Shown here: in pieces, positions 24,562 to 50,593 of the stretch | How the letters are laid out: every line of letters starts with the position of its first letter | How positions within the stretch are numbered: position 1 is the stretch's first letter | Assembly (NCBI GenBank): GCA_033439255.1 | Contig: CM065890.1 | Location: 1 to 64,000, forward strand | Origin: Hericium rajendrae | Taxonomy: Eukaryota; Basidiomycota; Agaricomycetes; Russulales; Hericiaceae | Direction: 5' to 3' | Length of the DNA stretch: 64,000 bases | Notes under the pieces: generated by a model | The model's database searches: none | Seen by the model: the letters and a program-made list of their open reading frames with translations, nothing else | Told to the model about the DNA's origin: nothing | Translations under genes and position numbers: made by a program

Positions 24562-25439
24562 CATCAGTAAACCTGGAAAGTTCTGATTGGTATCTGATTA
24601 TGTCTGATTTGATCTGATTCAGACAATCAGACAATCAGATGAGTCAGGTAGGTCCCTATCGTCCAGTGCCTTTCAGATAAAAGTGTCTGATTTTAGACAG
24701 AAGTCTGAGTGTCAGATGGCCATCTGAGTGTCAGATGGCCATCTGAGTGTCAGATGACCATCTGAATGTCAGATGACCATCTGAATGTCAGACAGCCATC
24801 TGAATGTTAGACAAAAGTCTGAGAGTCAGACCTTGTCTGAGAGTCAAATGCTATCTGAGAGTCAGATGCTGTCTGGGAATCAGATGCTGTCTGATATCTC
24901 TCATATTTTGTCTGAAGTCAGGGATGAGTCTGATAGTCAGATATATATCAGATCATCACTCCTAGATCAGACTCATATTAGGTTTCCAGACCATTTAGAC
25001 CAGATCAGATCAGATCTCAATATTATTTCATTCAAAACACTAAAGCTAGACAGGCTAAACTAAGAGCATACTACATCATAGTAATGCTTACAAGCATGTA
25101 TGCTGAAGGCAGTGGGGAGGAGGGGTGCTAGTACAAGCCAAAAGACGAGCCCTTACATAGTCACATAAAGACTACAGTTAGGAGTGTAAGAAAAATCAGA
25201 ATTATTGAATATGATGCCTCACATAATCGTCGTGAACAAGCTGTCACAGGTGTACACAGCTTGCTGCTATCATGCCCGACAGCTATAGCATTGTGAAATA
25301 TGCTGCGCCAATGCAGAACAGATGCCCAGGGAAGTGGAAGTCAGCCAGGATGCAGCAGCAATGGGAAGAGCAGCAGCAAGGTGGGGGAAAGAGAATGAAT
25401 GGAAAAGAGTCTGTTGGTACATTAGAATAATACAAATAA

Positions 25440-26720
25440 TAAATACTCATACTCACCTTGAATACTCTGCAGAACCGTGTGAATCCTGGCAGCGCTGGCT
25501 TCGATAGCACGAAGGAAGGACTGAGCGAAGCAACACAATATGCGTAGCTGTAGGACACGAAACACAACTGTTCCATGCCCCACAGCCTGCACGAAGTTAG
25601 AAGGCTGAAAAGGAAATGAACTGGCTGCAGCAAGGCAAAATGGTGGGCACAGACAGGGCAGCAGAGCGGGTATGAGGAGTGGCAGTGAGGGAGGGCAAGA
25701 ATGGAGGGAAATTTAATTAGTACATGAACAACGAGAGCGAATACCTTGTGCTCACCTTTGGCTATCGAGTTTGGGGAGTGCAGCGGGACGAAAGGGGTGA
25801 GGATGAAGAAGGACTTTGAGAGCAACGTTCGAAACCGAACGTTACTCTCTTTGTCAGTACGAGTTGTTCCGAAATCAAGACATTTTTTACTCACCTTGGG
25901 CCCCACCACTGAGTCCCAATACCTTGTTCTAATCCCTCAGTATGACAAGTTGGACTCGAAGTCGACACGTTGGGTCGACGACATCCACCCGGGGCTGTGT
26001 GCATCTGTGTGCATGGGGTGGAGATCGAGATGAAGGTCAAGGGGAAGGTCAAGGGCGCGCGAGCATGAGCACAGGAGATGCGGGGCACAGTGCATGGGAA
26101 CGCGACGGAGGGATGCACGGAGGGGGGGTTGTTGAGGGATAAGGGAAAACGAGGAGTACTGCTCGATAACGAGCAATACTCCTCGCGTTAGTACCTTAGA
26201 CACGAATATAACAGACCTTTTACTTACCTCTGTGTCCTGGCCACTTTCGAGTCATCCCTCCGACCTTCAAGTCAAGAGGCGAGGAGAGCGTGAGGTAGAA
26301 CGGGGAGTACTGTTCGATAACGAGCAGTACTCCCCCAATTAGCATAGTAGACAGTGTGATATAAAATTTTTGAACTCACCGTGGCGTCTAGCAAGTCCTT
26401 CCGCCCCTCGAAATGAACCTCCACCCTTCGAATGGATTAGAAACGCGCAGACTACGAGAACGAGCCCCAACGCCTCGTTCTCGTGGTCCTCGAGCTTGAT
26501 CCGAGGCTGCTGGGGCACGGCAAGACATGCGAGGCATGCGGAGGCGCGAGTGAGATTGGACGTGCGGAGGGAATGGGCACGCGAAAGGCGGCATGCGGAG
26601 CGTGGGGCATGGAAGGGACGACGGAAGGGGCGTGGGTGTTGAGATAGAACAGAGATCGGGGAGTACTGCTCATTATCGAGCAGTACTCCCCAGTGTCAGC
26701 ACGATGAACGAAAGAAAGAT
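25440..26720 (-). repeat. Leftward arm of intron-hairpin modules (element A)
   Basis: Reading the minus strand away from the core, successive modules show a donor (GTGAGT, GTAAGT or GTGAGC), about 40-60 nt ending in a branch-like CTAAT, CTAAC or CTGAC, an AG, then a hairpin. Hairpins lie at about 26656-26690, 26300-26336, 26147-26183 and 25821-25856. Two further donor/branch sets without a clear hairpin occur near 25755-25700 and 25457-25415. No long protein is convincingly encoded, and open frames here look incidental. Confidence 0.6.
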
Positions 26721-26834
26721 AAGATTTTTTTTAACTCATCTTACACTCCTCTGGAGTCTAGCAAGCCCCTCCGCTTTCTAAATCGTCCCTCCGGCCTTCA
26801 AGTCGACAGCAACGAGCAATGAGAAGAGGAAGAG

Positions 26835-26935
26835 ACACGACTTCAACAATGCGCGTTGCCGGGTGCTTGCCGATCGGGGATTGCCGACCGGGCCGGTAGC
26901 TTGCCGAAAGCATAACGCGCGTTTGAAACGTTAAG
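26835..26935. other. GC-rich core between divergent modules (element A)
   Basis: Core phrase GATTGCCGACCGGGCCGGT (26879-26897) is flanked by related words TTGCCGGG, TTGCCGAT and TTGCCGAA and by GCGCGTT/AACGCGCG. The same phrase occurs at the same relative place in the other giant elements (about 37990-38008 and, inverted, about 48627-48645). Modules point away from it on both sides, as expected for a bidirectional promoter; that role is inference. Confidence 0.55.
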
Positions 26936-27029
26936 TCGCACTTGCTATCTCTTGGCTATCCATCGTTTCTCCTCCGCTACTTTCTTCATTTCCTGATGCC
27001 TTGAAGACCGAAGGAATATATTGAAGGCT

Positions 27030-27135
27030 GGAGAGGGTACTGGGGGGCCCAGGTGAGTCAAAATACTTGTTATTATCGTGTCTACTGTACTAATTCGGGG
27101 AGTACTGCTCAGTTTCGAGCAGTACTTCCCGTTTT
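27030..27135 (+). repeat. Rightward intron-hairpin module (element A)
   Basis: Donor GTGAGT is at 27053 and the branch-like TACTAAT at about 27088. The acceptor-like AG at 27101-27102 implies an intron of about 50 bp. The hairpin GAGTACTGCTC...GAGCAGTACTTC follows at 27100-27129. This mirrors the minus-strand modules on the other side of the core. Confidence 0.6.
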
Positions 27136-27369
27136 CTCTTCTGCATCAACATCAACACCACTTCCGTCGCCTTTCGTGCCTCGCACCCCGTACGCCGCCT
27201 TATTTTCGTGCTCCACTCCCCGCGCATGCTCCGCCTCTCCGCCTGACGCCCACCGTAGTTCCTTCTCGCGCACGGCCCCGCATGACCCCGCACGAATGCA
27301 GGTCCTCGTTGTTTTGCGTGCCGACCCACACATCGGTAAGTACATTTTCTTTGTGTCTCTCTGTTCGCC

Positions 27370-28080
27370 TTCTGCCCGCGCAGCCTGTGGGTCCCGAAAC
27401 GGTTTCGTTTCGAGTCCTACAGGTGCGTGGGCCTTCGGTTTTCGCATCTACCTGCCCGCGCAGCCTGTGGGGCCCGAAACGAGAACGTTTCGGGCCCTCC
27501 AGGTGCGCGAGCCTTTGATTCTCGCATTTACCTATCCGCGCAGCCTGTGGGGCCCGAAACGAAAACGTTTCGGGCCCTGGAGGTGCGTGGATCTTCGGCT
27601 TTTGCATCTACCTGCCCACGCAGCCTGTGGGGTCCGAAACGTTTTCGTTTCGGGCCCTACAGGTGCGTGGATCTTCAATTTTCGCATCTACCTGCCCGCG
27701 CAGCCTGTGGGGCATGAAACATTCTTGTTTCGGGCCTACAGGTGCGCGAGCCTTTGATTCTCGCATCTACCTGTCCGTGCAGACTGTGGGGCCCGAAACG
27801 TTCTCGTTTCGGGCCCTACAGATGCGCGGATCTTCTCTTTTTGTATTTACCTGCCCGTGCAGGCTGTGGGGCCCGAAACGATAACGTTTTGGGCCCTACA
27901 GTGCGTGGGCCTTCTGTTCTCGTATTTACTTGCCCGTGCAGGCTGTGGGGCCCGAAACGAGAACGTTTCGGGCCCTACAGATGCGTGGGCCTTCTTTTTC
28001 GTATTCACCTGCCCGCGCAGGCTGTGGGGCCCGAAACGAGAACGTTTCAGGTCCTACAGGTGCATGGGCCTTCGGTTATC
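27370..28080 (+). repeat. 81-bp minisatellite with an internal palindrome, about 9 copies
   Basis: Units of 79-82 bp repeat about nine times. Each contains GGGCCCGAAACG, a 4-6-nt loop, and CGTTTCGGGCCC (centres near 27400, 27482, 27563, 27645, 27725, 27803, 27883, 27962 and 28042), followed by CAGGTGCGTG and CTGCCCGCGCAGCCTGTGG. Because 81 is a multiple of three, all frames can stay open and give repetitive translations. I regard those as by-products, not genes. Confidence 0.85.
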
Positions 28081-28103
28081 ATGTCAAGTTGTCAATTTAT
28101 GAA

Positions 28104-28388
28104 TGTTACAGCCATTTGCATAGAGCATGGCAGTAACTCGCGTTTTTTCGATTAAAAATACATTTTTGAATGAATAATGCCCTCTGCTTTGTATATTATG
28201 AAACCGTCTAAGATTCCCTCGGCAATGACTGACGCCAGCAAGCTGAAGTGCTATGACGAAGTGATGAAGTGGTTGCGAAGTGGAGAGCTCGATGCGTCAA
28301 AACACCCAGCCACAGGGTCAGCCACATCTTTCCTCTTTCATCGAAAAACCGCGAGTTACTGCCATGCTTTATGCAAATGGCTGTAAAT
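28104..28388. mobile_element. Small foldback of a different family inside element A
   Basis: Inverted ends TTACAGCCATTTGCATA (28104) and its complement near 28372-28388 extend for about 45 bp (both include CATGGCAGTAACTCGCG). They enclose a 69-codon open frame starting at 28177. Ends and sequence differ from the CATCAG family. No clear target duplication is seen. The frame reads through the terminal repeat, so I doubt it is a gene. Confidence 0.45.
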
Positions 28389-28559
28389 CTAGACTTTGCA
28401 AAGCTGTTATGAGTGCTCAGCCTGAGTTCAGATTGATTGAGCTCAAGTCCAATTCAAAATCAAAGTCTGATTTTCATTCAGATTCAGGTTTAAACTTGGA
28501 TTTGATTTCCTCCACTTTTTATCCTTCAAGTCTAAGACCACTATAAACATCTCATAAAA

Positions 28560-29300
28560 ATTTAGATGTTTGATGTATCCAAAGACCTATCTGACTTTGT
28601 CTGATAAATAGCTACTGTCTGACTCTCATTTAATGTCTGACAGAATCAATAATGTCTGAAACAAGTCCATAAGTCTTATGTGCCTAAAAGTACCTAAATG
28701 ATAAGGACTTATTTGACTTTATTTGAAAAGTAGTAGCTGTTTAACTTTAATTCAATCTCTGAAAGACTTAACAATGTCTGACCAAAGTTCAAAGGTCTGG
28801 CATATCTAAAAGTATCTGAATAATAGAGACCTATCTGACTCTATCTGAAAAGTAGCAATTGTCTGACAATTATTAAATGTCTAACAAAATGATCTTCATC
28901 TGACAAATTTTTAAGACTCTGACATGTCTGAAAAAATCTGGATGATAGAGACCTACCTGACTTTGTCTAAAAAGTAGCAATGATCTGACTTTTATTTAAT
29001 GTCTGACAAAATTACCTTCATCTGACAGATGTATAAGAATCTGATATGTCTGAGAACATCTGGATGATAGAGACCTACCTGACTTCGTCTGAAAAGTAGC
29101 AATGATCTAACTTTTATTGAATGTCTGATAAGATGATCTTCATCTGACAGATGTGTAAGAATCTGATATATCTAAAAACATCTGGACGATAGAGACCTAC
29201 CTGACTCTATCTGAAAAGTAGCAATAATCTGACCTTTATTGAATGTCTGACAAAATTACTCTTATCTGATAGATTTTTAAGAATCTGATAGGTCTGCTGA
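28560..29300 (+). repeat. TCTGA tandem array with a period of about 122 bp (right subterminal, element A)
   Basis: About five to six units share GATAGAGACCTACCTGACT, then TCTGAAAAGTAGCAATGATC, then AATGTCTGAC. They are arranged head to tail at about 28815, 28945, 29067 and 29190, with decayed units to the left. By analogy to CACTA elements these are candidate transposase-binding subterminal repeats. Confidence 0.65.
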
Positions 29301-29439
29301 TATCTGATATTCTTCTAATTTTATAAAATGATCTACACACTATTTTATTCATATGTGAGTCAGACAAATGGACCTGTTCAGAACTCTCAGACAAAAGTCA
29401 GACAGTCAGACTAGTCAGAAGATTCCTCATTTCCTGATG

Positions 29440-29930
29440 TCTACAGCCTGGGGGCCCATTCCTGGGCTGCATCTGAATGGCGCATGGATGAGCAACAGGG
29501 AAGATTCGACACTGTCATTGTCAACGTCGTCACGACTGTCAGTGATGACCGCCCCATCATCCCACAGCCTGTACCCTCCTCCAACGCCACACCCGACGCA
29601 CCCCTCACCACCTCGGCCTTTCGTGCTAAAAAACCCTTCTGCTTCCACTGCCACAGGCTGGGGCACATCGTGAGAGACTGCGGAAGGCAACGTCGTCGAG
29701 ACACTCAGAGAGCCCGGCGCTCAGGAGGACCACCACCCGCTACTGCCCCACCAACTGTCCACTGGGACACCCACCACGAGGCTTGGGATTCAATTCCCCC
29801 TGTCGACCAATGCCTCGATCCCATGGCCAGAGTCTTCCATGAGCACTGCGAGCTTCTCCGCAACTGCCTTTGCGGCACTGACACTGCCATCAACAAGTTG
29901 CTTGAGGAGCAGAAGTACTGGTCGGACTGA
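29440..29930 (+). pseudogene. Extra CCHC zinc-knuckle segment of gypsy fossil 1
   Basis: Downstream of element A, an open stretch encodes the knuckle CFHCHRLGHIVRDC (about 29638-29679) followed by a basic run RQRRRD. It lies between pol and the 3' LTR. A gag-like nucleic-acid-binding part in this position is unusual for Ty3/gypsy. It could be a second, captured gag-like segment. Confidence 0.55.
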
Positions 29931-30095
29931 CTGTGGGAGGTGGAGTGGAAGAACCCACCTCGCCCCTCGAAGGAAGAGGTTCATGAAACTCAGCGCAGCT
30001 GGAGAGATGAGGAGGACAGGTGTGACCCGAGCTGGGGCCTCCCTGGGTAGGACTTCTAGGACACATCGGGTCGACGTGTCATAGAAAGGGGGTGG

Positions 30096-30827
30096 TGTTA
30101 AGAACCATATGTTTCATTTCTTAACTTGACATTACTCCCTTTGACATCCCCACCATGGTCGATGTCCCATTGCTCTATTCCCTTTATTTAACCATATCTA
30201 CATGCATGCATGGACGCTATCGCACTGCCTCGATCCACTATCCATTTCCATCATGATCATTGCAGTGCTACCCTATCTACTCCTCCATCATGTTTCATCC
30301 CCATCATGCATAGTACGATGCTGTGCAATGCACAGTTACTACCATCACCTTAGATACGACTCGTAGCTGTGCATCCTCCTGTATTTAACTGGTTGAGCTG
30401 AGTCCCTTAGACCTCAGCTTAACCACTTTGCAACTCTATAGGATTTACCTCCTGTCAGTCACCAGTGCCCTTTAAGTTCCTCCACCTTGCGCTTCCCTCT
30501 CTCAATCGCCCTCGACTCTCTTCATTGTCGATCGCCTCTTGAGCAGGTCAGCCTTTGTTGTTTGTGTGTAGCCTGAGTCCCTACATCAGGAACCCTTTCA
30601 GTCTTCTTAGTGACCTTGTTGGTCTGGTTTGGGTCTGGTGGATCTGGTTTTTGTCTGGTTTGTCTGGTTTTCATCTGAATTGATAGAAAACCAGACAAAC
30701 CAGATGAAAACCAGACAAACCAGACAAAAACCAGATTCACCAGATCCAAACCAGACCAACAAGGTCACTAAGAAGACTGAAAGGGTTCCTGATGTACTCA
30801 GTCACTACAGGATGTCGGTCCTTAGCA
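30096..30827 (+). repeat. 3' LTR of gypsy fossil 1, carrying a MITE
   Basis: This is the same 519-bp LTR as at 12918, enlarged by the 211-bp foldback at 30584-30794 plus its 2-bp duplication. A purine tract (AGAAAGGGGGTGG, about 30083-30095) lies directly upstream. Confidence 0.9.
30584..30794. mobile_element. 211-bp foldback MITE, copy 1
   Basis: This near-perfect palindrome has arms of about 95 bp starting CATCAGGAACCCTTTCAGTC. The target duplication is TA at 30582-30583 and 30795-30796; the unoccupied site is visible in the 5' LTR at about 13404. By eye it is identical over its whole length to 57771-57981. Confidence 0.95.
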
Positions 30828-30832
30828 CTGGG

Positions 30833-32405: not shown

Positions 32406-34409
32406 GTGAAGCGTTGGGAAGCCGAAGGAGTTTGGTTTCAATTGAGATCGTGGAAACCACATGCAGGTGCTATTTCCATTGCCTTATACGTTCGAATTCG
32501 AGTTGCTTTTGACGTCGACTTGCAAGAATTCACGTTTGGTGCCTCGGACATCACCTACCACTGTCGCCAACCCAACCGAGGATCCCCTGCGAGCATCCTG
32601 CCATCGACCTCATTCCCCTTTTGCACACTAGGTTTCTTCACCCCAGAACCCTCGCCTGAGCCTGTGTGGGCCAGAGAATGCCTCGGCCACCAATTCCTCA
32701 GAATTTCGTACTCCACCACCTTGTACCCTCATGCCCTTGGACGTCGTCCAGTTGCGGCAGACTTCCTGTAGGTTGTCACCATTGATTCCACTGACCCCCG
32801 CTTCCAGACCACTGCACCCTTCCCACTTGGGATCTTCGAGTCCCTTGGGGACTACCACATTTACACCCTTGCTGGCATTGCCTGGATCCACTTTTCTCAC
32901 CAAGACCCTGCCACCCGCCAGTGGTACTTCGCTGAGTGCGAAGACTTCCCCTACCTCGAACTCATCGACTTTGACGTTGCCAGAGAAGAACACCACCGCC
33001 TACACCCAGCCACTCCACCGCTCCCCACCATTGCCCCTCCTAGTATCGACTCCCCTCCTGCATGCACCGAAACCCTCTCTGTACCAACAGGTATCATCTT
33101 CAATGCTGTTACCAGGAAGTACTATGCATACCGTTCCAACTCTCGATGCCTAGTCGTTGGCTGGAGACCAAACCTAGTAGAAGGAAGAGATCAGTGGTTT
33201 TGGCAGGCCAGTAGCATTTTCATCACTGAACCTGAACTCGCTCTCTCTCACCAAGTCCTAGAAGCCCGCGAGCAAGAGCGAGTTGCCCAGCTCGCAGTCC
33301 TCCACTCACCGCTACCCCCTCGCATCCCAACCCCGATACCAATCCCCTCACCCGCTCCACCTGTTACCACTGTTACATCCACATCCACCGTCAACATCAA
33401 ACCGATCATCGCCCCAGCTCCCCCTGTTCAGCCACCCGACGACATGTCCAACCCCGAGATCGGTATCAAACCTGCTCCCTTTGAGGGAGATTGTTCCAAG
33501 TCCAAGGAGTTCCAGTTGCATATTTGCTTATTCCTTCGTGCCAACTCTACCCAGTATAAAGATGATACCGCCCAGATCTCCCTCTTCCTCGACCTCTGCC
33601 AGGGCCCTATTGCCAGCCAGTGGGCCACCCAGCGTGTCGAGGAGATCCTTGAGGATGATGATCTTGTGGCTGCAAACACATCTCCAGCCCATGTCCCTCG
33701 CTTCGCCAACCTCGCTGCCCTTCGAACTCGCTTCAATTTGGACTTCTCCCCCCTTGACGACTCCAAGGATGCCTCCCATGCCATCCAGACCCTCCAGATG
33801 GGTACATGCCCGGTAGTTGACTACATCACCGAGTTCGAGTCCTTCGCTCCTCGCACCGGCTACAACGATGTGGCCCTGATCGATTGGTTCCTGCATGGCC
33901 TCAACAGTGCCTTGCGGGATGATTGCCAGTGCAGCTACCCCACGCCCACCACCCTGGATGAGTGGAAGGTGAGGGCCCGTGACAGGAATGCTGCCTACCT
34001 CATGCGCACCCGGTTCCAGAGTCCCCACCCTACAACTGGGTGCACCCCGGTGAGCACTCGCTCCCCTCAGTCCACATCTACTGGCCGATCCCACACCGTT
34101 GCTGCTACAGGTGCCCCACTGCCCAAACTCTCGAAGCCTGACCGTGAGCGTCTCAGGCGTGAGGGTGGTTGCTTCCGCTGCCGTCAGAAGGGCCATGGCT
34201 TCCGCGACTGCCCCCTCAATGCTGACTCCAACCCCCGTGCCCCAATCCCTCGTGTCCGAGCACTAGAAACTGGCTCTGCCCTGGGAGTAGCTCCAGAAGA
34301 TGCAGCCGCCGCCCTCGCTGTCCCTGCCATCAACAGGTCCATCGCCGACTTATTGTCGCAGTTGAAGGACTTGAGCGAGGAAGAGAGGGAAGAGCATCAG
34401 GAAGGTTGA
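32406..34409 (+). pseudogene. gag region of gypsy fossil 2
   Basis: A long N-terminal part (about 32750-33440) with Trp/Tyr-rich patches such as WFWQASSIF precedes the capsid-like part (33444-34000). The nucleocapsid knuckle CFRCRQKGHGFRDC is at about 34170-34211. The segment ends just before the inserted element at 34395. Confidence 0.75.
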
Positions 34410-34551
34410 CAACTTTCTGCTAGACCTGCGAGCAATCAGACACTCTCAGATAAGATCAGAAAATCTGCAGGTCAATCAGATGCTCTCAGATGCTCTCAGA
34501 TGCTCTCAGATTGCTCGCAGGTCTAGCAGAAAGTTGTCAACCTTCCTGATG
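34395..34551. mobile_element. 157-bp foldback MITE in gypsy fossil 2
   Basis: Ends are CATCAGGAAGGTTGACAACT and the inverse ...CAACCTTCCTGATG. The 2-bp duplication is AG (34393-34394, 34552-34553). The ends match those of 22872-23452 while the middle is much shorter, so it is a deletion derivative or sister of that subfamily. Confidence 0.92.
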
Positions 34552-36039: not shown

Positions 36040-37058
36040 CATCAGTAACCCTCAAATTTTCTGATTCATCTGCAAATTGTCTGTAAATTGTCTGTGAATG
36101 ATTCAATCTTATTTAATTTTGTTTGATTGTTGCTATCAGACAATCAGACAAATCATGTAGGTCCTTAATTTTCAGTCAACTTCAGTCAACTTCAGAAAAA
36201 AATTGTCTGATATCAGAAAAAAATCTGATAACTACAGACATTTTCTAATACTATCAGATAATCTCTGATAACTTCAGACATTTTCTGATACTATCAAACA
36301 TTGTCTGATAGTATCAGAAAACTATCAGACATTGTCTGCCAACATCAGAAAATATCTGAAATGATCAGACATTGTCTAACAGCATCAGAAAATGTCTGAC
36401 AGAATTAGACTTTGTCTAACAACTTTAAACATTATCTGATGTCTTCAGATATTTTCTGATACTATCAGAGATTGTTAGACCATTATCAGAGAATGTTTTA
36501 AGTGATCAAAATTTGTTTTGATGTTTAAAAGATATTAGAGTCAGATTTTGCATTGACATTCAACTTGAAGTGCATCACATCAATCAAACATTCTCAGAAT
36601 CTTACTAAGTAAAAATCAGACAATATCAGATAATTATCAGAACATATCATGTTCATCAAAGCCCATTCAGACATATTGTATCTCATATCAGACACCAATC
36701 AGTCAATCAGACTTCAATCAGAAGAACTCAGTTTTACTTTCAGAATGTGTTAAAGAGCTTTCAGCTCAAAATCAGGCTTTTCAGCCAGTATTCAGAGACT
36801 CAGAATCACACCAAATTATCAGAAGTCTGACAGTTCAACATATTCTGAAATCAGACATATAGACAAACCTTCATCAGCCCTCAGACATTTTTCAGTCACA
36901 GATATTCAGTTCAAACCTCACATAGGATCTAAATTACAAAAGTCTGGACAAATATAAAAATTATGACATGTAAAACACTCAAACGATGCTATGCCAGGAC
37001 TCAGAGAGCACCAGGTGCACAGGAATATACAACCCCAGCTGAAAATCACCATGAACCA

Positions 37059-37253
37059 CTAGCACAGGACTTCCTTGACCATTGCGTCAAGGTTCTGCAG
37101 TGCGAATGCATCATCGTACATTAGCAGGTAGCCCACAACACTGTCGATCTCACTCTGCACTCCCACATACTTAAATAGCATGACATGCTCGAGCCCACGG
37201 CGGTGTGCAGCACTCGTGAGGAAGGGATGCACGCGGGAAGGAAGAGTACGCAC
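37059..37253 (-). CDS. Small open frame at the outer end of the leftward modules (hypothetical)
   Basis: A 64-codon minus-strand frame, also present in the sister copy at 49380-49574, encodes a protein-like C-terminal run (HVMLFKYVGVQSEIDSVVGY) ending at TAG. It follows the minus-strand intron-hairpin modules and could be a terminal exon of a spliced transcript from the core. I do not recognise a family. Conservation between two recent copies is not independent evidence of selection. Confidence 0.25.
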   Translation of the reverse strand: MRTLPSRVHPFLTSAAHRRGLEHVMLFKYVGVQSEIDSVVGYLLMYDDAFALQNLDAMVKEVLC

Positions 37254-37599
37254 GTGTCAGCACCGTCAGCACAGACGCTTGCAGTGGTTCATATGATGCC
37301 AAGCTTATCGCGCGCACAGGCCTGCAACGTAGCTTGGGCCCGCATCACTCGTGTTCTGCATCACATCAGTTAATGGTCAGAGAGTCGAGGAGAGCAGGAC
37401 ACGCACCACATCCGCCGTCAAACGGTGCCCGCGCGAGCAATGCAGGTAGGCACGAAACAGTTGCGGTGACGTGGCATGTTGTTGATGCCATAAGCAGGAT
37501 GTTGATGGCGAGGTGTGCATGACGTGGCATATGGTGTTGACCAGAGGCGAGTATGCAGGCACGAGAGGACAAGCGTGGGGATGGGGTCGATGGTCGCTC

Positions 37600-37800
37600 C
37601 CTTCATTAGTACAGAAGACACGAATCCAATGCAATTTACTCACCTGCGAGCATGCTGGGTGGATGCAAGGGATATGGATGATGTAGCAGCGATGGACAAG
37701 AGGCAGCTAGGGGCGAAGGAGTGAAGAGTGAGAAGAGAGTATCGCTCGACAACGAGCGTTACTCTCTTCGTTAGTACACGAGAACGAAGGGGATCAACAA
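37600..37800 (-). repeat. Leftward intron-hairpin modules (element B copy 1)
   Basis: On the minus strand, donor GTAAGT near 37812, branch TACTAAC near 37776 and hairpin GAGTAACGCTCG...CGAGCGATACTC (37736-37768) form one module. Donor GTGAGT near 37646 and TACTAAT near 37611 form a second without a hairpin. Orientation is away from the core at about 37990. Confidence 0.55.
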
Positions 37801-37959
37801 ATCGTACTTACCTTGATTCCCTAAGTATTTGCTGATCCTCACGCGGCTCGAATTCTTGCGGTGCTTGCTTCAATAAGAGGAAGAAAGAGAAAGGAAAGGG
37901 GGAGAGACGAATGGGATAAGGCAGAGTGCAAGTTCAACGTTGAACGACATGTTGAACTC

Positions 37960-38045
37960 GACGCGCGTTCCCGGAGATTGCCGAAAGGGGATTGCCGACC
38001 GGGCCGGTGGCTGCCACAACGGGTTGCACGTTGAAGTCGTGCTTG
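37960..38045. other. GC-rich core between divergent modules (element B copy 1)
   Basis: It contains GATTGCCGACCGGGCCGGT at about 37990-38008 plus ATTGCCGAAAGGGG and a CGCGCGTT-type word, matching the core of element A. It lies between oppositely oriented module arms. A bidirectional promoter role is inferred, not shown. Confidence 0.55.
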
Positions 38046-38099
38046 TCTCTCGTTATCTCTTCCTGCCCCTTCATTAATCCTCGTTTCCGACGATTTCAA

Positions 38100-39275
38100 G
38101 GCCTGAAGGACGTTTCAAAACTGGCTAGGGCTTGATAAGGCTCGAAGGTGAGTTAATAAAACTCGTATTTTCGTATTTATCGTGCTAACGCGGGGAGTAC
38201 TGCTCGTCATGGAGCAGTACTCCTCGTTTTCTGGGCTTCGTCGACACAGAAGGCCAGAGGGACATTTGGAAAGGCGGAGGGACTTGGTAGAGACAAGGTG
38301 AGTGAAAATATTATCAAGTTTACTGTCTATTATGCTAATTGGGGGAGTATTGCTCATTTTCGAGCAATACTCCCCGATCTCTTCCTACCCCCCTCTCCAT
38401 CGGCTCTCCTGCATCCCGCACGCCTCCTCCCGTGCCCCATTTCCCCCGTCCAATCCGCCCCTCGTCCAACGCGCTCCCCGTACACCTTTTCTATCGCGCG
38501 CAAGACTCTGCACGGATGTACACCAGTCCGCGCGGATCAACCGATACATACGACCCCGCACTGATCTGCATAGCCCCGCGCGGACCGCGTGTGTCCGTCG
38601 CACCTCGCACGAGCTGGAGGGATATTTGAAAAAAAGAGAGACTTATGAGCCTCATAGGCCAAGGTGAGTAACAGTAACGAATATATTCATGTTTATCGTG
38701 CTAATACAGGGAGTACTGCTCGTTCTCGAGCAGTACTCCCTTTTTTTCTTCGTTTGCCTCAACACACACATCCCCGCACGCCGAAGTGCTCTTCTGCACC
38801 CCACGTCCTGCACGCGGCCTCTCGCGTGCCCCCATCTCCCGCACACTCCGCCTTTCGCGTAGCCCATCTCCCACCTGCCATGAGTCTATCATGCCCAGCT
38901 CTGCGCGGATGCATGAGGTCCCGGTGCCTCGTGCACGTCTCCCGTCCCCCGTTACCGTTGACTCTCCCTCCGCCTCCCCCTGCACGCCTGCACGTCCTCA
39001 CGCACGACCCTGCGTGACCTCGCATGACCCCGGAGCTGCACGTTCGCGTGCATGGCCTCACCATTGCACGCACGGCCTCGCATGAACGTGCACGGCCCCG
39101 CGGTCACATGTGTGGCCCCATGTCGGTGTTCTGATGACTTTGAAGGATGGATGATGACTCAAAAAAGACTAGGGTGGATAAGGATTAAAAGTAAGTTCAA
39201 AAAAATCTTCTTTCGTGTCTACCATGCTTACGTGGGGTGTACTGCTCAGTTTCGAGCAGTACTTCCCACTCTGTG
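38100..39275 (+). repeat. Rightward arm of four intron-hairpin modules (element B copy 1)
   Basis: Modules in order have donors at about 38148, 38299, 38661 and 39190 and branch-like GCTAAC, GCTAAT, GCTAAT and GCTTAC. Hairpins lie at 38192-38226, 38341-38375, 38708-38740 and 39233-39269. The first implied intron (38148-38197) is 50 bp. The last module is duplicated at about 40427-40507 by the tandem duplication. The sequence between hairpins is C-rich and ends in a CCGCACG...CACCCCACG-type stretch. Confidence 0.6.
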
Positions 39276-41248
39276 TGCTGCCTCGACACCCACCAAACCC
39301 TGTCCCTCACCTTTCCCGTGCCTCGCACCCTACATGCTGTCTCTTCGTTCCCCTCGTCCCGCATCTCGTGCCCTCTGCCCACCGTCCACCCTCACTTCCC
39401 CATCGTGTCGCGTGCAGCTGTGCACGGACTAATATGTCTCATGTCTGAATTGAATGTAGATGCCTGACTCTAAATAATTTTGCCTGACATTTGTGATTTG
39501 TCTGATATTCTATAGAATGTCCAGGAATAATCATTGTGTCTGATATGAAGCCAATGTCTAAAAGGTCTGATCATGTTCAAAATTTTGAGACCTAAATGAT
39601 AGTATCTGAAAAATGAAGGCCTAACTAATTTTGTGTGATATTTTACAAACTGTTTGACTATACTTCTTGTATCTGACAGAATTTTGAAGTCCAACAGATC
39701 TGACTAGTCTGAAAAATAAAGACTTACATGATTATACCTAATTTCTGTAACTAGTCAGCTGCCAGTGTTCATATAATGTCTGACAACAATTCTTTATATC
39801 TGACAAGATGTTAAAGTCTGAAGGTCTAATTTGGTCTGAAAAATAGAGATCTACATGATGATATCTGATATTTTTTTTTCTAATAGCAGATCAAGTTTTT
39901 GATGACACATCAAAGTCTGAAAGGTCTAACCTTATCTGAAAGATAGAGGTCTACATAATTATGTCTGATGTTCATAAAATTTCTAAAGATTTTTCAAATA
40001 TCTGACAACAATGCACGCCGAAGTGCTCTTCTGCACCCCACGTCCTGCACGCGGCCTCTCGCGTGCCCCCATCTCCCGCACACTCCGCCTTTCGCGTAGC
40101 CCATCTCCCACCTGCCATGAGTCTATCATGCCCAGCTCTGCGCGGATGCATGAGGTCCCGGTGCCTCGTGCACGTCTCCCGTCCCCCGTTACCGTTGACT
40201 CTCCCTCCGCCTCCCCCTGCACGCCTGCACGTCCTCACGCACGACCCTGCGTGACCTCGCATGACCCCGGAGCTGCACGTTCGCGTGCATGGCCTCACCA
40301 TTGCACGCACGGCCTCGCATGAACGTGCACGGCCCCGCGGTCACATGTGTGGCCCCATGTCGGTGTTCTGATGACTTTGAAGGATGGATGATGACTCAAA
40401 AAAGACTAGGGTGGATAAGGATTAAAAGTAAGTTCAAAAAAATCTTCTTTCGTGTCTACCATGCTTACGTGGGGTGTACTGCTCAGTTTCGAGCAGTACT
40501 TCCCACTCTGTGTGCTGCCTCGACACCCACCAAACCCTGTCCCTCACCTTTCCCGTGCCTCGCACCCTACATGCTGTCTCTTCGTTCCCCTCGTCCCGCA
40601 TCTCGTGCCCTCTGCCCACCGTCCACCCTCACTTCCCCATCGTGTCGCGTGCAGCTGTGCACGGACTAATATGTCTCATGTCTGAATTGAATGTAGATGC
40701 CTGACTCTAAATAATTTTGCCTGACATTTGTGATTTGTCTGATATTCTATAGAATGTCCAGGAATAATCATTGTGTCTGATATGAAGCCAATGTCTAAAA
40801 GGTCTGATCATGTTCAAAATTTTGAGACCTAAATGATAGTATCTGAAAAATGAAGGCCTAACTAATTTTGTGTGATATTTTACAAACTGTTTGACTATAC
40901 TTCTTGTATCTGACAGAATTTTGAAGTCCAACAGATCTGACTAGTCTGAAAAATAAAGACTTACATGATTATACCTAATTTCTGTAACTAGTCAGCTGCC
41001 AGTGTTCATATAATGTCTGACAACAATTCTTTATATCTGACAAGATGTTAAAGTCTGAAGGTCTAATTTGGTCTGAAAAATAGAGATCTACATGATGATA
41101 TCTGATATTTTTTTTCTAATAGCAGATCAAGTTTTTGATGACACATCAAAGTCTGAAAGGTCTAACCTTATCTGAAAGATAGAGGTCTACATAATTATGT
41201 CTGATGTTCATAAAATTTCTAAAGATTTTTCAAATATCTGACAACAAT
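38776..41248 (+). repeat. 1237-bp tandem duplication inside element B copy 1
   Basis: Unit 1 is 38776-40012 and unit 2 is 40013-41248. Unit 2 differs by a single base in a T run by eye. The junction joins CTGACAACAAT (subterminal array) to GCACGCCGAAG (module arm). Copy 2 of the element has only one unit, so the duplication is recent and specific to this copy. Confidence 0.9.
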
Positions 41249-41384
41249 CCTTATATCTGACAACATGTTAAAGTCTGAATTGTCTAACTTGATCTGAAAA
41301 TTTAAGACTTACATAGTGATGTCTGATATTTTTATTTTTTTGATAGCAGATCAAGTTTCTGATGACATATCAAAGTCTGAAAGG

Positions 41385-41940
41385 TCTGATTTTGTCTGAG
41401 AAATAGAGACCTACATGATTATGTCTGATGATTTTAGATTGTCTGATAAGAATTCTTATATCTGACAACATGTCAAAGTCTGAAAGGTCTGATTTTGTCT
41501 GAGAAATAGAGACCTACATGATTTGTCTGATGATTTTAGAATGTCTGATAAAGATTTGTATATCTGACAACATGTCAAAGTCTGAAAGATCTGATTTTGT
41601 CTGAGAAATAGAGACCTACATGATTATGTCTGATGATTTTAGATTGTCTGATAAGAATTCTTATATCTGGCAACATGTCAAAGTCTGAAAGATCTGATTT
41701 TGTCTGAGAAACAGAGACCTACATGATTTGTCTGATGATTTTAAAATGTCTGATAAGGATTTGTATATCTGACAACATGTCAAAGTCTGAAAGGTCTGAT
41801 TTTGTCTGAGAAATAGAGACCTACATGATTTGTCTGATGATTTTAGAATGTCTGATAAGGATTCTTATATCTGACAACATGTCAAAGTCTGAAAGATCTA
41901 ATTTTGTCTGAGAAACAGAGACCTACATGATTATGTCTGA
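41385..41940 (+). repeat. TCTGA tandem array with a period of about 103 bp
   Basis: About six head-to-tail units each hold GATTTTGTCTGAGAAATAG, AGACCTACATGATT and ATATCTGACAACATGTC. The array is mirrored at about 45940-46500 in copy 2. It is a candidate subterminal transposase-binding array of this element. Confidence 0.75.
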
Positions 41941-42159
41941 TACATTGGATTTTTTCTGAAACAGCCTCTAATTTCTGAAAAAATCATCTACTTCTGTAGA
42001 TATTTGAAAATCTGATAACTCTGATAGCATCTGAAATTTTTCTGAAGTTGAAAAAGTATCTACTCATTGTTTTATTCATATTTGGGTATCAGATATTTAA
42101 AAATTTTCAGATCAGTCAGACCATCAGACCAGCCATTAAATTTGGCTCTTCCTGATGTT

Positions 42160-44744: not shown

Positions 44745-45167
44745 TGTCATGGATCGCTCCATTTCTCTCTGCCCTTTTCTCTGCCATCAAGGCATCACGT
44801 CGGTCATGTGCTCCAGCAGCCCCATCACATGTTCACTTCCTCACATGACCTGGGGCTATCCTTCACCCATGCTCTTGTTCCCCTTTGGGACATCCTATTG
44901 ATCTCCCTCCCATTGTTCTCCTTTTGGCCACCATTGTTCTCACTCTATTGTTCGACCCATTATGGTGTCCATTGTTCTTTTCCCATTGTCGTCCTAGTAC
45001 TTATAGGCTCCCTGTCGCTCGCCTATTTCCCTAGATTGTCCATTTCATCTGTACCGTACTGTACCTCCAATACAGGTCACTGCGCTGCTAGTCGCTCTCT
45101 GCTCTCTCGCTCCCATCATCGCTGGTGACTTGGGTGGTTCTCTGCTGTCTACGACCGAGTCTTGACA
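44745..45167 (+). repeat. 3' LTR of gypsy fossil 2
   Basis: 423 bp, paired with 31793-32215 and preceded by a purine tract (AGAGAGGGGATGA). Confidence 0.92.
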
Positions 45168-45172
45168 GGCCT

Positions 45173-45713
45173 GGGGGCAGCAGAGAAAGCACAGGATCAG
45201 CACCAGCTGCAGGGTGGCTGAGAGCACAGTCGAGGGCTGCACAGCAGGTGATGCTAGTGCAGCAGAATCAGTGATGAATGGGTCATCATCAGGGGCAGGT
45301 GGGTGGGTGACATCACTAGGCAAGATCACATCAGCAAACCTTTCCATTTACTTGTTGATCTGGTTTGTCTTTTTTTGATCTGGTTGATCTGGTTTTGATC
45401 TGGTTTTTTTCTGAAATTTTTTAAAAGCAGTTTGAGTGATTTTTAATATGTACATCATAGATAAAAAGGATGCAATATCATAATAACAAATATTAGAAAG
45501 CTCAAATTGCATATTTCAAAAAATTTTCAGATGAAAACCAGATCAACCAGATAAAAACCAGATCAACCAGATCAAAAAAAGACAAACCAGATCAACAAGT
45601 AAATGGAAAGGTTTGCTGATGCAGGCCTTGCTGCAGTAAAGCGAAAATATAATCAAAACATAGTTAAATAAATTAGTATAAGACAAAAGAGAAACATAAG
45701 AACATAAGACATA
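45173..45713 (-). other. 5' region of the split LINE/host-like unit, with a MITE
   Basis: On the minus strand this continues upstream of 31792. It has an acidic/Pro-rich open stretch (VTHPPAPDDDPF at about 45300) and, just 5' of it, an acceptor-like TTTACTGCAG (AG at 45631-45632). The donor GTAGGT at about 50671-50676 would make an intron into which element B copy 2 inserted. Whether this is the LINE's own leader or a host exon next to it is unresolved. Confidence 0.4.
45327..45621. mobile_element. 295-bp foldback MITE, CATCAGCAAACC subfamily, copy 1
   Basis: Ends are CATCAGCAAACCTTTCC and the inverse. The 2-bp duplication is CA (45325-45326, 45622-45623). The arms are rich in GATCTGGTT/AACCAGATC words around an AT-rich centre. 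It is nearly identical to 52850-53141. Confidence 0.93.
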
Positions 45714-48700
45714 CATCAGGAAGAGCCAAATTTAATGGCTGGTCTGATGGTCTGACTGATCTGAAAATTTTTAAATATCTGATACCCAAATATGAATAAA
45801 ACAATGAGTAGATACTTTTTCAACTTCAGAAAAATTTCAGATGCTATCAGAGTTATCAGATTTTCAAATATCTACAGAAGTAGATGATTTTTTCAGAAAT
45901 TAGAGGCTGTTTCAGAAAAAATCCAATGTATCAGACATAATCATGTAGGTCTCTGTTTCTCAGACAAAATTAGATCTTTCAGACTTTGACATGTTGTCAG
46001 ATATAAGAATCCTTATCAGACATTCTAAAATCATCAGACAAATCATGTAGGTCTCTATTTCTCAGACAAAATCAGACCTTTCAGACTTTGACATGTTGTC
46101 AGATATACAAATCCTTATCAGACATTTTAAAATCATCAGACAAATCATGTAGGTCTCTGTTTCTCAGACAAAATCAGATCTTTCAGACTTTGACATGTTG
46201 CCAGATATAAGAATTCTTATCAGACAATCTAAAATCATCAGACATAATCATGTAGGTCTCTATTTCTCAGACAAAATCAGATCTTTCAGACTTTGACATG
46301 TTGTCAGATATACAAATCTTTATCAGACATTCTAAAATCATCAGACAAATCATGTAGGTCTCTATTTCTCAGACAAAATCAGACCTTTCAGACTTTGACA
46401 TGTTGTCAGATATAAGAATTCTTATCAGACAATCTAAAATCATCAGACATAATCATGTAGGTCTCTATTTCTCAGACAAAATCAGACCTTTCAGACTTTG
46501 ATATGTCATCAGAAACTTGATCTGCTATCAAAAAAATAAAAATATCAGACATCACTATGTAAGTCTTAAATTTTCAGATCAAGTTAGACAATTCAGACTT
46601 TAACATGTTGTCAGATATAAGGATTGTTGTCAGATATTTGAAAAATCTTTAGAAATTTTATGAACATCAGACATAATTATGTAGACCTCTATCTTTCAGA
46701 TAAGGTTAGACCTTTCAGACTTTGATGTGTCATCAAAAACTTGATCTGCTATTAGAAAAAAAAAATATCAGATATCATCATGTAGATCTCTATTTTTCAG
46801 ACCAAATTAGACCTTCAGACTTTAACATCTTGTCAGATATAAAGAATTGTTGTCAGACATTATATGAACACTGGCAGCTGACTAGTTACAGAAATTAGGT
46901 ATAATCATGTAAGTCTTTATTTTTCAGACTAGTCAGATCTGTTGGACTTCAAAATTCTGTCAGATACAAGAAGTATAGTCAAACAGTTTGTAAAATATCA
47001 CACAAAATTAGTTAGGCCTTCATTTTTCAGATACTATCATTTAGGTCTCAAAATTTTGAACATGATCAGACCTTTTAGACATTGGCTTCATATCAGACAC
47101 AATGATTATTCCTGGACATTCTATAGAATATCAGACAAATCACAAATGTCAGGCAAAATTATTTAGAGTCAGGCATCTACATTCAATTCAGACATGAGAC
47201 ATATTAGTCCGTGCACAGCTGCACGCGACACGATGGGGAAGTGAGGGTGGACGGTGGGCAGAGGGCACGAGATGCGGGACGAGGGGAACGAAGAGACAGC
47301 ATGTAGGGTGCGAGGCACGGGAAAGGTGAGGGACAGGGTTTGGTGGGTGTCGAGGCAGCACACAGAGTGGGAAGTACTGCTCGAAACTGAGCAGTACACC
47401 CCACGTAAGCATGGTAGACACGAAAGAAGATTTTTTTGAACTTACTTTTAATCCTTATCCACCCTAGTCTTTTTTGAGTCATCATCCATCCTTCAAAGTC
47501 ATCAGAACACCGACATGGGGCCACACATGTGACCGCGGGGCCGTGCACGTTCATGCGAGGCCGTGCGTGCAATGGTGAGGCCATGCACGCGAACGTGCAG
47601 CTCCGGGGTCATGCGAGGTCACGCAGGGTCGTGCGTGAGGACGTGCAGGCGTGCAGGGGGAGGCGGAGGGAGAGTCAACGGTAACGGGGACGGGAGACGT
47701 GCACGAGGCACCGGGACCTCATGCATCCGCGCAGAGCTGGGCATGATAGACTCATGGCAGGTGGGAGATGGGCTACGCGAAAGGCGGAGTGTGCGGGAGA
47801 TGGGGGCACGCGAGAGGCCGCGTGCAGGACGTGGGGTGCAGAAGAGCACTTCGGCGTGCGGGGATGTGTGTGTTGAGGCAAACGAAGAAAAAAAGGGAGT
47901 ACTGCTCGAGAACGAGCAGTACTCCCTGTATTAGCACGATAAACATGAATATATTCGTTACTGTTACTCACCTTGGCCTATGAGGCTCATAAGTCTCTCT
48001 TTTTTCAAATATCCCTCCAGCTCGTGCGAGGTGCGACGGACACACGCGGTCCGCGCGGGGCTATGCAGATCAGTGCGGGGTCGTATGTATCGGTTGATCC
48101 GCGCGGACTGGTGTACATCCGTGCAGAGTCTTGCGCGCGATAGAAAAGGTGTACGGGGAGCGCGTTGGACGAGGGGCGGATTGGACGGGGGAAATGGGGC
48201 ACGGGAGGAGGCGTGCGGGATGCAGGAGAGCCGATGGAGAGGGGGTAGGAAGAGATCGGGGAGTATTGCTCGAAAATGAGCAATACTCCCCCAATTAGCA
48301 TAATAGACAGTAAACTTGATAATATTTTCACTCACCTTGTCTCTACCAAGTCCCTCCGCCTTTCCAAATGTCCCTCTGGCCTTCTGTGTCGACGAAGCCC
48401 AGAAAACGAGGAGTACTGCTCCATGACGAGCAGTACTCCCCGCGTTAGCACGATAAATACGAAAATACGAGTTTTATTAACTCACCTTCGAGCCTTATCA
48501 AGCCCTAGCCAGTTTTGAAACGTCCTTCAGGCCTTGAAATCGTCGGAAACGAGGATTAATGAAGGGGCAGGAAGAGATAACGAGAGACAAGCACGACTTC
48601 AACGTGCAACCCGTTGTGGCAGCCACCGGCCCGGTCGGCAATCCCCTTTCGGCAATCTCCGGGAACGCGCGTCGAGTTCAACATGTCGTTCAACGTTGAA

Positions 48701-50593
48701 CTTGCACTCTGCCTTATCCCATTCGTCTCTCCCCCTTTCCTTTCTCTTTCTTCCTCTTATTGAAGCAAGCACCGCAAGAATTCGAGCCGCGTGAGGATCA
48801 GCAAATACTTAGGGAATCAAGGTAAGTACGATTTGTTGATCCCCTTCGTTCTCGTGTACTAACGAAGAGAGTAACGCTCGTTGTCGAGCGATACTCTCTT
48901 CTCACTCTTCACTCCTTCGCCCCTAGCTGCCTCTTGTCCATCGCTGCTACATCATCCATATCCCTTGCATCCACCCAGCATGCTCGCAGGTGAGTAAATT
49001 GCATTGGATTCGTGTCTTCTGTACTAATGAAGGGAGCGACCATCGACCCCATCCCCACGCTTGTCCTCTCGTGCCTGCATACTCGCCTCTGGTCAACACC
49101 ATATGCCACGTCATGCACACCTCGCCATCAACATCCTGCTTATGGCATCAACAACATGCCACGTCACCGCAACTGTTTCGTGCCTACCTGCATTGCTCGC
49201 GCGGGCACCGTTTGACGGCGGATGTGGTGCGTGTCCTGCTCTCCTCGACTCTCTGACCATTAACTGATGTGATGCAGAACACGAGTGATGCGGGCCCAAG
49301 CTACGTTGCAGGCCTGTGCGCGCGATAAGCTTGGCATCATATGAACCACTGCAAGCGTCTGTGCTGACGGTGCTGACACGTGCGTACTCTTCCTTCCCGC
49401 GTGCATCCCTTCCTCACGAGTGCTGCACACCGCCGTGGGCTCGAGCATGTCATGCTATTTAAGTATGTGGGAGTGCAGAGTGAGATCGACAGTGTTGTGG
49501 GCTACCTGCTAATGTACGATGATGCATTCGCACTGCAGAACCTTGACGCAATGGTCAAGGAAGTCCTGTGCTAGTGGTTCATGGTGATTTTCAGCTGGGG
49601 TTGTATATTCCTGTGCACCTGGTGCTCTCTGAGTCCTGGCATAGCATCGTTTGAGTGTTTTACATGTCATAATTTTTATATTTGTCCAGACTTTTGTAAT
49701 TTAGATCCTATGTGAGGTTTGAACTGAATATCTGTGACTGAAAAATGTCTGAGGGCTGATGAAGGTTTGTCTATATGTCTGATTTCAGAATATGTTGAAC
49801 TGTCAGACTTCTGATAATTTGGTGTGATTCTGAGTCTCTGAATACTGGCTGAAAAGCCTGATTTTGAGCTGAAAGCTCTTTAACACATTCTGAAAGTAAA
49901 ACTGAGTTCTTCTGATTGAAGTCTGATTGACTGATTGGTGTCTGATATGAGATACAATATGTCTGAATGGGCTTTGATGAACATGATATGTTCTGATAAT
50001 TATCTGATATTGTCTGATTTTTACTTAGTAAGATTCTGAGAATGTTTGATTGATGTGATGCACTTCAAGTTGAATGTCAATGCAAAATCTGACTCTAATA
50101 TCTTTTAAACATCAAAACAAATTTTGATCACTTAAAACATTCTCTGATAATGGTCTAACAATCTCTGATAGTATCAGAAAATATCTGAAGACATCAGATA
50201 ATGTTTAAAGTTGTCAGACAAAGTCTAATTCTGTCAGACATTTTCTGATGCTGTTAGACAATGTCTGATCATTTCAGATATTTTCTGATGTTGGCAGACA
50301 ATGTCTGATAGTTTTCTGATACTATCAGACAATGTTTGATAGTATCAGAAAATGTCTGAAGTTATCAGAGATTATCTGATAGTATTAGAAAATGTCTGTA
50401 GTTATCAGATTTTTTTCTGATATCAGACAATTTTTTTCTGAAGTTGACTGAAGTTGACTGAAAATTAAGGACCTACATGATTTGTCTGATTGTCTGATAG
50501 CAACAATCAAACAAAATTAAATAAGATTGAATCATTCACAGACAATTTACAGACAATTTGCAGATGAATCAGAAAATTTGAGGGTTACTGATG
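45714..50593. mobile_element. Giant CATCAG-family element B, copy 2 (4.88 kb, inverted)
   Basis: The ends CATCAGGAAGAGCC and GAGGGTTACTGATG are the complements of copy 1 ends. The target duplication is TA (45712-45713, 50594-50595). It holds the same subterminal arrays, core (about 48627-48645) and modules as copy 1 in reverse order, with hairpins at about 47370-47405, 47896-47928, 48261-48295, 48410-48444 and 48868-48900. It lacks the 1237-bp duplication. Together with copy 1 it forms an inverted repeat of about 4.9 kb around the 3' half of gypsy fossil 2. Confidence 0.9.

Follow-up and report, generated by a model that had tools for sequence, protein, structure and literature searches.

Non-autonomous DNA transposons are usually regarded as ends plus filler. 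Three elements in a 64,000-nucleotide stretch of Hericium rajendrae (contig CM065890.1, positions 1 to 64,000; hereafter the window) raise the question of what else such an interior may hold. The observation that intron-hairpin cassettes run outward from a core within these elements is confirmed here. Moreover, the interior shows the mark of selection, with splice signals joined to RNA structure on both strands. We infer a symmetrical locus in each element, from which two RNAs would run outward from a GC-rich core. That these are two divergent, spliced and essentially non-coding RNAs, whose hairpins would govern the choice of 3' splice site, is a reading for and against which we see about equal weight.

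The carrier transposons

By their ends and target site duplications (TSD), element A (24562..29439, plus strand, 4878 bp, TSD TC), element B (36040..42157, plus strand, 6118 bp, TSD TT) and element B' (45714..50593, minus strand, 4880 bp, TSD TA) are PlavakaB-type DNA transposons. All three have CATCAG...CTGATG termini (CATCAGTAAACC...CATTTCCTGATG in A) and a 2-bp TSD; the PlavakaB rule, in the available text of Kojima 2025 (PMC12730594), is 5'-CATCA..TGATG-3' termini with a 2- or 3-bp target site duplication. The Plavaka-type carrier proposed in a previous sequence-only reading is thereby supported. The "giant" transposons of that reading are not: A, B and B' are separate elements of 4.9-6.1 kb, and within the interval 24562-50593 other transposons sit between them. 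Within the window, 11 of the 13 end pairs tried had a 2-bp TSD, the exceptions being an arbitrary right end at 11228 and the pair 51661/62865.

Element B interrupts a Ty3/gypsy frame in its RT region, and the RT halves recognized by Pfam flank it. B' is an inverted, near-identical copy with only 6 single-base differences from B outside a duplication, so that the two were probably mobile recently. This 1237-bp tandem duplication (second copy at 40013..41248, plus strand) is absent in B' and brings B an extra copy of its cassette B_R4 (40425-40506). A has a longest frame of 250 aa, B one of 134 aa. Of the 13 frames in A or B that reach 120 aa, 8 were scanned against Pfam and gave no match up to E 0.1; since no transposase was found there, A, B and B' are filed as non-autonomous. 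A Plavaka transposase gene (58730..61764, plus strand, Pfam PF18759), which lacks cassettes, is a possible source of activity in trans for A, B and B'. Its intron (GTGAGT...CTAAT...TTTTTAG) matches the cassettes in the style of donor and branch site. A Helitron-like reading (hairpin plus CTRR), considered by eye, was abandoned in view of the PlavakaB ends and TSDs and of a donor spacing that hardly varies.

Outward cassettes around a GC-rich core

The 19-base core GATTGCCGACCGGGCCGGT occurs exactly three times in the window and never in 100 shuffles. Its exact matches lie at 26879..26897 in A (plus strand; the proposed bidirectional promoter centre), 37990..38008 in B (plus strand) and 48625..48643 in B' (minus strand), which upholds the shared core noted earlier. 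A covariance model gave 16 matches above 70 bits (10 distinct), all within A, B and B'. The distinct hairpin cassettes number four left and one right of the core in A, and one left and four right in B. All 10 point away from the core, as do the B' copies and the duplicated B_R4; the claim of modules directed outward on both strands therefore holds for all 16 strong matches.

In the left arm of A, on the minus strand, lie A_L1 (26656..26744, hairpin 26658-26691, 76 bits), A_L2 (26300..26382, donor 26379, hairpin 26302-26335, 87.3 bits), A_L3 (26149..26230, donor 26227, hairpin 26150-26185, 85.3 bits) and A_L4 (25815..25897, donor 25894, 73.6 bits), the last with a hairpin of differing sequence at 25818-25849. 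The right arm, on the plus strand, holds A_R1 (27050..27132, donor 27053, hairpin 27096-27131, 92.6 bits). In B, the minus-strand B_L1 (37732..37814, donor 37811, hairpin 37732-37769, 75.1 bits) is opposed by four plus-strand cassettes: B_R1 (38145..38227, donor 38148, 90.5 bits), B_R2 (38295..38377, donor 38298, 90.1 bits), B_R3 (38661..38743, donor 38664, 89.4 bits) and B_R4 (39188..39269, donor 39191, 79.3 bits). B' repeats them inverted, with four covariance-model matches for R4-R1 (47367..48488, minus strand) and one for L1 (48819..48901, plus strand).

The intron quoted earlier, 38148-38197, was exact (GTGAGT...CTAAC...GGGGAG). As to the GTGAGT/GTAAGT donor, A_L1 departs from it: its homologous donor is ATGAGT at 26739, with GTAAGA 5 nt upstream at 26744. 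The CTAAC/CTAAT branch site holds in part, as CTGAC stands in A_L1 and A_L4 and CTTAC in B_R4. A hairpin is present in the 10 distinct cassettes but not, as had been stated, in every module: the distal intron-like B_L2 (37597..37643, minus strand, 24.6 bits) and A_L6 (25411..25456, minus strand), an ordinary-looking 46-nt intron with CAACAG, have none. Between A_L4 and A_L6, a further candidate was recognized by eye (A_L5, 25541..25755, minus strand; donor GTGAGC, branch site CTAAC, and a GTGCAG that runs into a type-2-like hairpin at 25541-25594), which the covariance model matched weakly as an intron (13.9 bits, E 0.62).

A second type of hairpin was seen, within the window, in A only. There a GTAAGT donor at 27336 is followed by about 9 tandem 80-nt units, each with a long type-2 hairpin (A_R2, 27336..28077, plus strand; repeat copies at 27372-28077), and the stem predicted for a well-kept unit is about 26 bp long.

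These arrangements exceed chance. Donor, branch site and a stem of at least 12 bp at cassette spacing occur together 11 times in the window, always in A, B or B'. In A and B, this strict joint motif is found 7 times versus 0 in 60 first-order Markov simulations, under a rule that overlooks 3 of the 10 distinct cassettes (A_L1, A_L2 and B_R4). A regular expression without the hairpin matched 7 introns in the mid-region of A and 5 in that of B; 200 simulations averaged 0.9 and 0.8 and never exceeded 5 and 4, respectively.

Constraint on the stem and position of the acceptor

Overall identity among the cassettes has fallen to about 45%, whereas donor, branch site and stem remain at 77-84%. In an alignment anchored on these conserved parts, with B_L2 left out, the constraint profile was 0.84 for the donor, 0.77 for the branch site and 0.83/0.79 for the stem arms, compared with 0.46 for both exon and intron body, 0.57 for the loop and 0.41 downstream. 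Paired cells made up 94.7% of the stem alignment (0 of 500 shuffles), 6 of the 15 stem pairs had changed on both sides (3 of 500), and the covariation score was 0.293 (0 of 500), the shuffles leaving the kinship among cassettes in place. Some of these compensatory changes yield G-U pairs; further pair types were unremarkable in number (124 of 500 shuffles). On this alignment, a stem kept through compensatory change indicates that the structure matters. Folding was computed for nine stretches, comprising 2 array units and 7 of the 10 distinct cassettes; all nine had z-scores from -4.6 to -7.0. For type 2, covariation was weak, as the number of both-side changes was reached in 88 and the score in 16 of 500 shuffles.

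The AG was earlier placed before the hairpin; we find it inside. Lying 9-10 nt from the branch A, this AG belongs to the 5' arm of the stem in 9 of the 10 cassettes, and TG takes its place in B_R4. The predicted probability of this AG being unpaired is 0.00 in all nine cassettes that have it. GAG is a rare acceptor in fungi. With the candidate acceptor buried in nine cassettes and absent from the tenth, exons beginning with a stem-loop can no longer be taken as a settled point, and the hairpin may equally lie within a longer intron. In the predicted structures, a CAG stands in the open loop of A_R1 and B_R4, and an AAG beside the stem of A_L4 is half open; acceptors at these places need not be blocked.

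The RNAs had been called non-coding or barely coding, and little coding capacity is predicted after splicing: the longest ORFs of three spliced arms (90, 110 and 62 aa) are under the shuffled 95% limits (175, 173 and 123), and only the right arm of A exceeds its limit (153 versus 149 aa), with an ORF that falls in the tandem array. Three short open stretches gave no Pfam match up to E 5. Protein-coding cargo was set aside, as only in the repeat array did a spliced frame exceed its shuffled limit and the frames scanned had no Pfam match. Rfam at gathering thresholds gave 0 matches over the whole window, and a viral collection yielded no match to the core 19-mer, to two hairpin patterns or to the transposase. 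A 14-base core fragment did match at least 120 stretches in that collection, which we take as chance in GC-rich phage DNA.

Possible functions and competing explanations

Our preferred function for the cassettes is control, probably delay, of exon ligation. Each outward RNA would carry a series of short spliceosomal introns, and a stable stem-loop predicted to begin a few bases past the branch site would hold the nearest well-placed 3' AG in 9 of the 10 cassettes. Once the spliceosome had committed at the strong donor and branch site, the hairpin would limit or redirect 3' splice site choice. The resulting slowly or alternatively spliced, essentially non-coding transcripts would serve to maintain transcription of the element or to tag its RNA. 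Cassette number changes through tandem duplication, as B shows when compared with B'. It is doubtful, but conceivable, that the cassettes go further and act as spliceosome traps, in which serial strong donors and branch sites, each followed by a hairpin locking nearby acceptors, let the two RNAs hold or divert spliceosomes. Such traps might serve to raise lariat or dsRNA signals, or to escape splicing-coupled RNAi surveillance. As far as literature titles and abstract openings were searched, neither spliceosome trapping as a transposon strategy nor a counterpart of the cassette-bearing transposon was found.

An unlikely, though plausible, alternative is that a longer intron, with the same donor and branch site, encloses the whole hairpin; its AG would lie downstream of the hairpin, and the purine-rich stretches just before the donors would be the exons. 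The predicted burial of the hairpin AGs, the loop CAG of A_R1 and B_R4 excepted, agrees with this, as does the finding that the first AG ends only 128-150 nt past the hairpin in 5 of the 10 cassettes. A stem-loop in the branch-acceptor interval is also tolerated in yeast: in a yeast ACT1 substrate (available text of PMC7935899), a 40-nt stem-loop between branch A and 3' splice site hindered splicing to no appreciable degree with the acceptor outside it, a result that also weighs against our preferred function. In the 10 cassettes, the trimmed downstream stretches have fewer AGs than their shuffles (9 versus 18.1, p 0.005). However, AG (0.50 of expected) is no more depleted than GG (0.27) or TA (0.47), and GA stands at 0.67, so the loss of AG may be compositional, and AG exclusion is not taken as proof that the intron is long. 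In only 6 of the 10 cassettes is the first AG past the hairpin a YAG, judged to be about the expectation for such C/T-rich sequence, and the implied branch-to-acceptor distances of 160-190 nt are long for a fungus. It is unlikely, too, that A and B are deletion derivatives, their core and cassettes being the bidirectional promoter and leader introns of lost divergent genes (transposase and partner). In the Plavaka copy of the window, a plus-strand transposase frame and minus-strand long frames diverge from a gap near 58 kb, and A and B would retain core, leaders and ends only. But no cassette occurs in 51.6-62.9 kb, where the best match (15.4 bits) is the transposase intron, and stems and splice signals constrained despite coding loss are not explained by mere remnants.

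We hold it quite improbable that one chance cassette was tandemly multiplied without RNA function, or that the palindromes act as DNA only. Constant cassette geometry, taken alone, would be expected from tandem duplication of one ancestral cassette, and both the duplication in B and other palindromes in these elements fit; uneven constraint and compensatory changes, some of them G-U, after such divergence nevertheless argue against it. Processing of the hairpins to miRNA-like small RNAs has a still smaller probability in our judgement. The tandem type-2 units with their long stem would suit it, whereas the type-1 stems, at about 15 bp and with loops of 4 nt, seem too short to serve Dicer, type-2 covariation is weak and the array is seen in A only. 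Small RNAs from hairpins have been reported for fungi, Coprinopsis among them (available text of PMC9757828). Those loci share with ours short stable hairpins, the type-2 stem being long enough to be plausible, but the cassette hairpins differ: each is tied to a donor and branch site, and a transposon carries them in divergent arrays. Most improbable of all is an invasion by introner-like mobile introns. Introners are known in some fungi, with TIRs or TSDs in many families (available text of PMC9860276), and resemble our introns as families of similar introns repeated in mobile DNA. However, the similarity of the cassettes runs into the upstream exon, the hairpin occupies one end only, inspection of the alignments by eye revealed no TIR or TSD bordering the cassettes, all strong matches within the window are confined to A, B and B', and one cassette multiplies inside its transposon by tandem duplication.

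A, B and B' share the ends and 2-bp TSD of PlavakaB, whose PF18759 transposase is found elsewhere in the window, but differ in the lack of a transposase found in A and B and in their divergent intron-hairpin cassettes, which the available text of PMC12730594 does not mention. In Cryptococcus, SCANR (available text of the review PMC5851062) would likewise turn poor exon ligation of transposon RNA into a signal; the cassettes differ in donors and branch sites that look strong and in the hairpin as the proposed obstacle. If the RNAs are made, they would offer a natural series of test substrates for 3' splice site structure controlling exon ligation, and perhaps a new transposon way of dealing with host RNA surveillance. 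The hairpin-free B_L2 and A_L6, in the same arms as the cassettes, speak against hairpin control.

Core, ends and coding capacity of the carrier elements

The three transposon copies A (24562-29439), B (36040-42157) and B' (45714-50593, minus strand) carry PlavakaB-type ends and duplications: all terminate in CATCAG...CTGATG and are flanked by 2-bp target duplications (TC, TT and TA, respectively), and Kojima 2025 gives PlavakaB CATCA..TGATG ends and 2- or 3-bp duplications (PMC12730594). Self-comparison of the window showed B and the inverted B' to be copies of each other; outside a 1237-bp tandem duplication of B, a single substitution and five 1-nt indels separate them. B interrupts a Ty3/gypsy frame in its reverse-transcriptase region. 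The sequence-only reading described giant transposons sharing a GC-rich core; the sizes of all three are ordinary, and the 19-base core holds, with three mismatch-free matches in the window (26879-26897 and 37990-38008, plus strand; 48625-48643, minus strand) and none in 100 shuffles.

No transposase came to light in these elements: frames reach at most 250 aa in A and 134 aa in B, and the Pfam scan, which covered 8 of the 13 that span 120 aa or more, returned no match. With predicted introns removed (that of cassette B_R4 set one base late), the longest open reading frames were 153 aa (in the tandem array) and 90 aa in the right and left arms of A, against shuffled 95% limits of 149 and 175, and 110 aa and 62 aa in those of B, against 173 and 123. 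Pfam matched none of three short distal open stretches; the distal exons may have a coding role. Those in the distal left arms of B (36992-37223, minus strand) and A (25456-25560, minus strand), without a Pfam match, look protein-like by eye. A small inverted-repeat element (28106-28386; 51-nt arms, 94% complementary, 179 nt between them) is nested in the right arm of A and has a 62-aa open frame, also without a Pfam match. The A/B type is a non-autonomous PlavakaB element with an unusual, constrained and probably non-coding cargo. Searches of an open paper library, within their terms, listed no such transposon cargo.

Outward-pointing cassettes and the symmetry of the locus

The cassettes, each a donor, a branch site and a hairpin, point outward in A, B and B', as had been proposed. 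A pattern search for donor, branch site and AG placed introns of 46-59 nt on the minus strand in left arms and on the plus strand in right arms. The two mid-regions held 7 and 5, a count that takes in the hairpin-less distal introns (25456, 25222, 37643) and leaves out B_R4; across 200 Markov simulations such introns averaged 0.9 and 0.8 and never exceeded 5 and 4, respectively. A covariance model trained on the 10 distinct cassettes recovered 16 copies at 73-93 bits. The remaining 31 of its 47 matches (E up to 5) scored 42 bits or below, namely antisense hairpins, the hairpin-less intron-like sequences B_L2 (24.6 bits) and A_L6 (19.6 bits), and weak matches. Since the model includes its training sequences, the informative result is that no further cassette copies appeared in the window, 51.6-62.9 kb included. 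In a model-free count, donor, branch site and stem occurred jointly at 11 places, all within A, B and B', and in none of 60 Markov-simulated versions of A and B; such hairpins averaged 0.05 per simulation versus 14 observed. One of the weak model matches, at 3401-3472 (plus strand; 18.2 bits, E 0.07), is perhaps an ordinary intron, and a near-perfect 32-bp palindromic hairpin lies at 18164-18233, outside the three copies.

A and B align piecemeal, the longer pieces mostly at 59-70% identity and the best stretch, around A_L2 and B_R2, at up to 76% over 159 columns. Their core regions match both directly (26851-27151; 68%, E 1.6e-28) and reversed (26636-27141; 61%, E 3e-24) by BLAST, and forced global alignments gave 202/284 and 203/277 identities, respectively. 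The nearest relatives of the left-arm cassettes A_L1 and A_L2 are the right-arm cassettes B_R1 (71%) and B_R2 (68%). The locus has the look of one cassette set long ago in inverted orientation on both sides of a near-palindromic core. The extra B_R4 was added by tandem duplication in B, which shows a route for array growth.

Constrained stems and the position of the acceptor

Across the 10 hairpin-bearing cassettes (B_L2 dropped), in an alignment anchored on the very parts scored as conserved, mean pairwise identity reached 0.84 at the donor, 0.77 at the branch site and 0.83 and 0.79 along the two stem arms; the loop stood at 0.57, and the exon upstream, the intron body and the stretch downstream at 0.41-0.46. 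The pattern was unchanged in A-versus-B comparisons alone. Standard pairs made up 94.7% of stem pairs; both sides had changed in 6 of 15 (equaled in 3/500 shuffles that retain cassette relatedness), and 0/500 shuffles reached the covariation score. Sequence comparison shows the predicted splice signals and stem to be constrained. A second hairpin type, nine tandem units of ~80 nt in the right arm of A (27372-28077) plus one degenerate relative in its left arm, is 95.2% paired; its covariation is weak (both sides changed in 3/23 pairs, 88/500 shuffles; score in 16/500). Folding was far better than in shuffles for all nine stretches, comprising 7 of the 10 distinct cassettes and two array units.

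The AG earlier placed immediately before the hairpin lies elsewhere: 9-10 nt from the branch A, it sits in the stem in 9/10 cassettes, with a predicted unpaired probability of 0.00 in all nine, and B_R4 has TG. Within hairpins, A_R1 and B_R4 alone have a predicted open AG, which lies in the loop, and A_L4 has an AAG immediately 5' of the stem that is predicted half open (0.50). The first AG past the hairpin lies 40-187 nt from the branch A and ends only 128-150 nt past the hairpin in 5/10 cassettes. Downstream AGs are depleted (9 seen versus 18.1, p 0.005), and GG and TA at least as strongly. These buried and downstream AGs leave two splicing models: either a structured acceptor is used and its use is forced, or the hairpin is contained within a longer intron. 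In yeast, splicing can tolerate a stem-loop of 40 nt that separates the branch A from an acceptor outside it (PMC7935899), which favors the longer intron and counts against simple blocking by the hairpin.

In the overall explanation, the core of PlavakaB-type elements would be transcribed in both directions, the outward transcripts would be spliced, and the hairpin would control acceptor choice; we give it even chances, and hold the anatomy alone with much higher confidence. By analogy with Cryptococcus, selection could act on the cassettes through intron-dependent mRNA accumulation or spliceosome-coupled RNAi; published work describes lower mRNA accumulation upon intron removal in most genes tested (PMC3744415) and entry of poorly spliced transposon RNAs into spliceosome-coupled RNAi (PMC5851062).

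Plavaka transposase gene and related ends

A Plavaka transposase gene lies at 58730-61764 (Pfam PF18759, two frames, E 3.9e-104 and 3.5e-13). The presence of Plavaka suggests an agaricomycete host. The right end of B resembles an end at 62865, with subterminal sequence 68.6% identical over 764 columns. Positions 51661 and 62865 are plausible left and right PlavakaB ends flanking the gene; their flanks form no target duplication (TT versus CA), and by eye a retrotransposon integrase-like frame lies right of 62865, with none such left of 51661. Adjoining the transposase, 54400-55900 (minus strand) holds long frames with many acidic repeats (GSDTEPEDDEEAPVDT), and four frames there (53566-54003, 54652-55689, 55022-55897, 56365-56982) had no Pfam match. 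Eight short elements that also run from CATCAG to CTGATG and are flanked by 2-bp target duplications are MITE-like PlavakaB relatives (15529-15819, 16297-16706, 22872-23452, 30584-30794, 34395-34551, 45329-45621, 52850-53141 and 57771-57981), the fourth and eighth being 100% identical.
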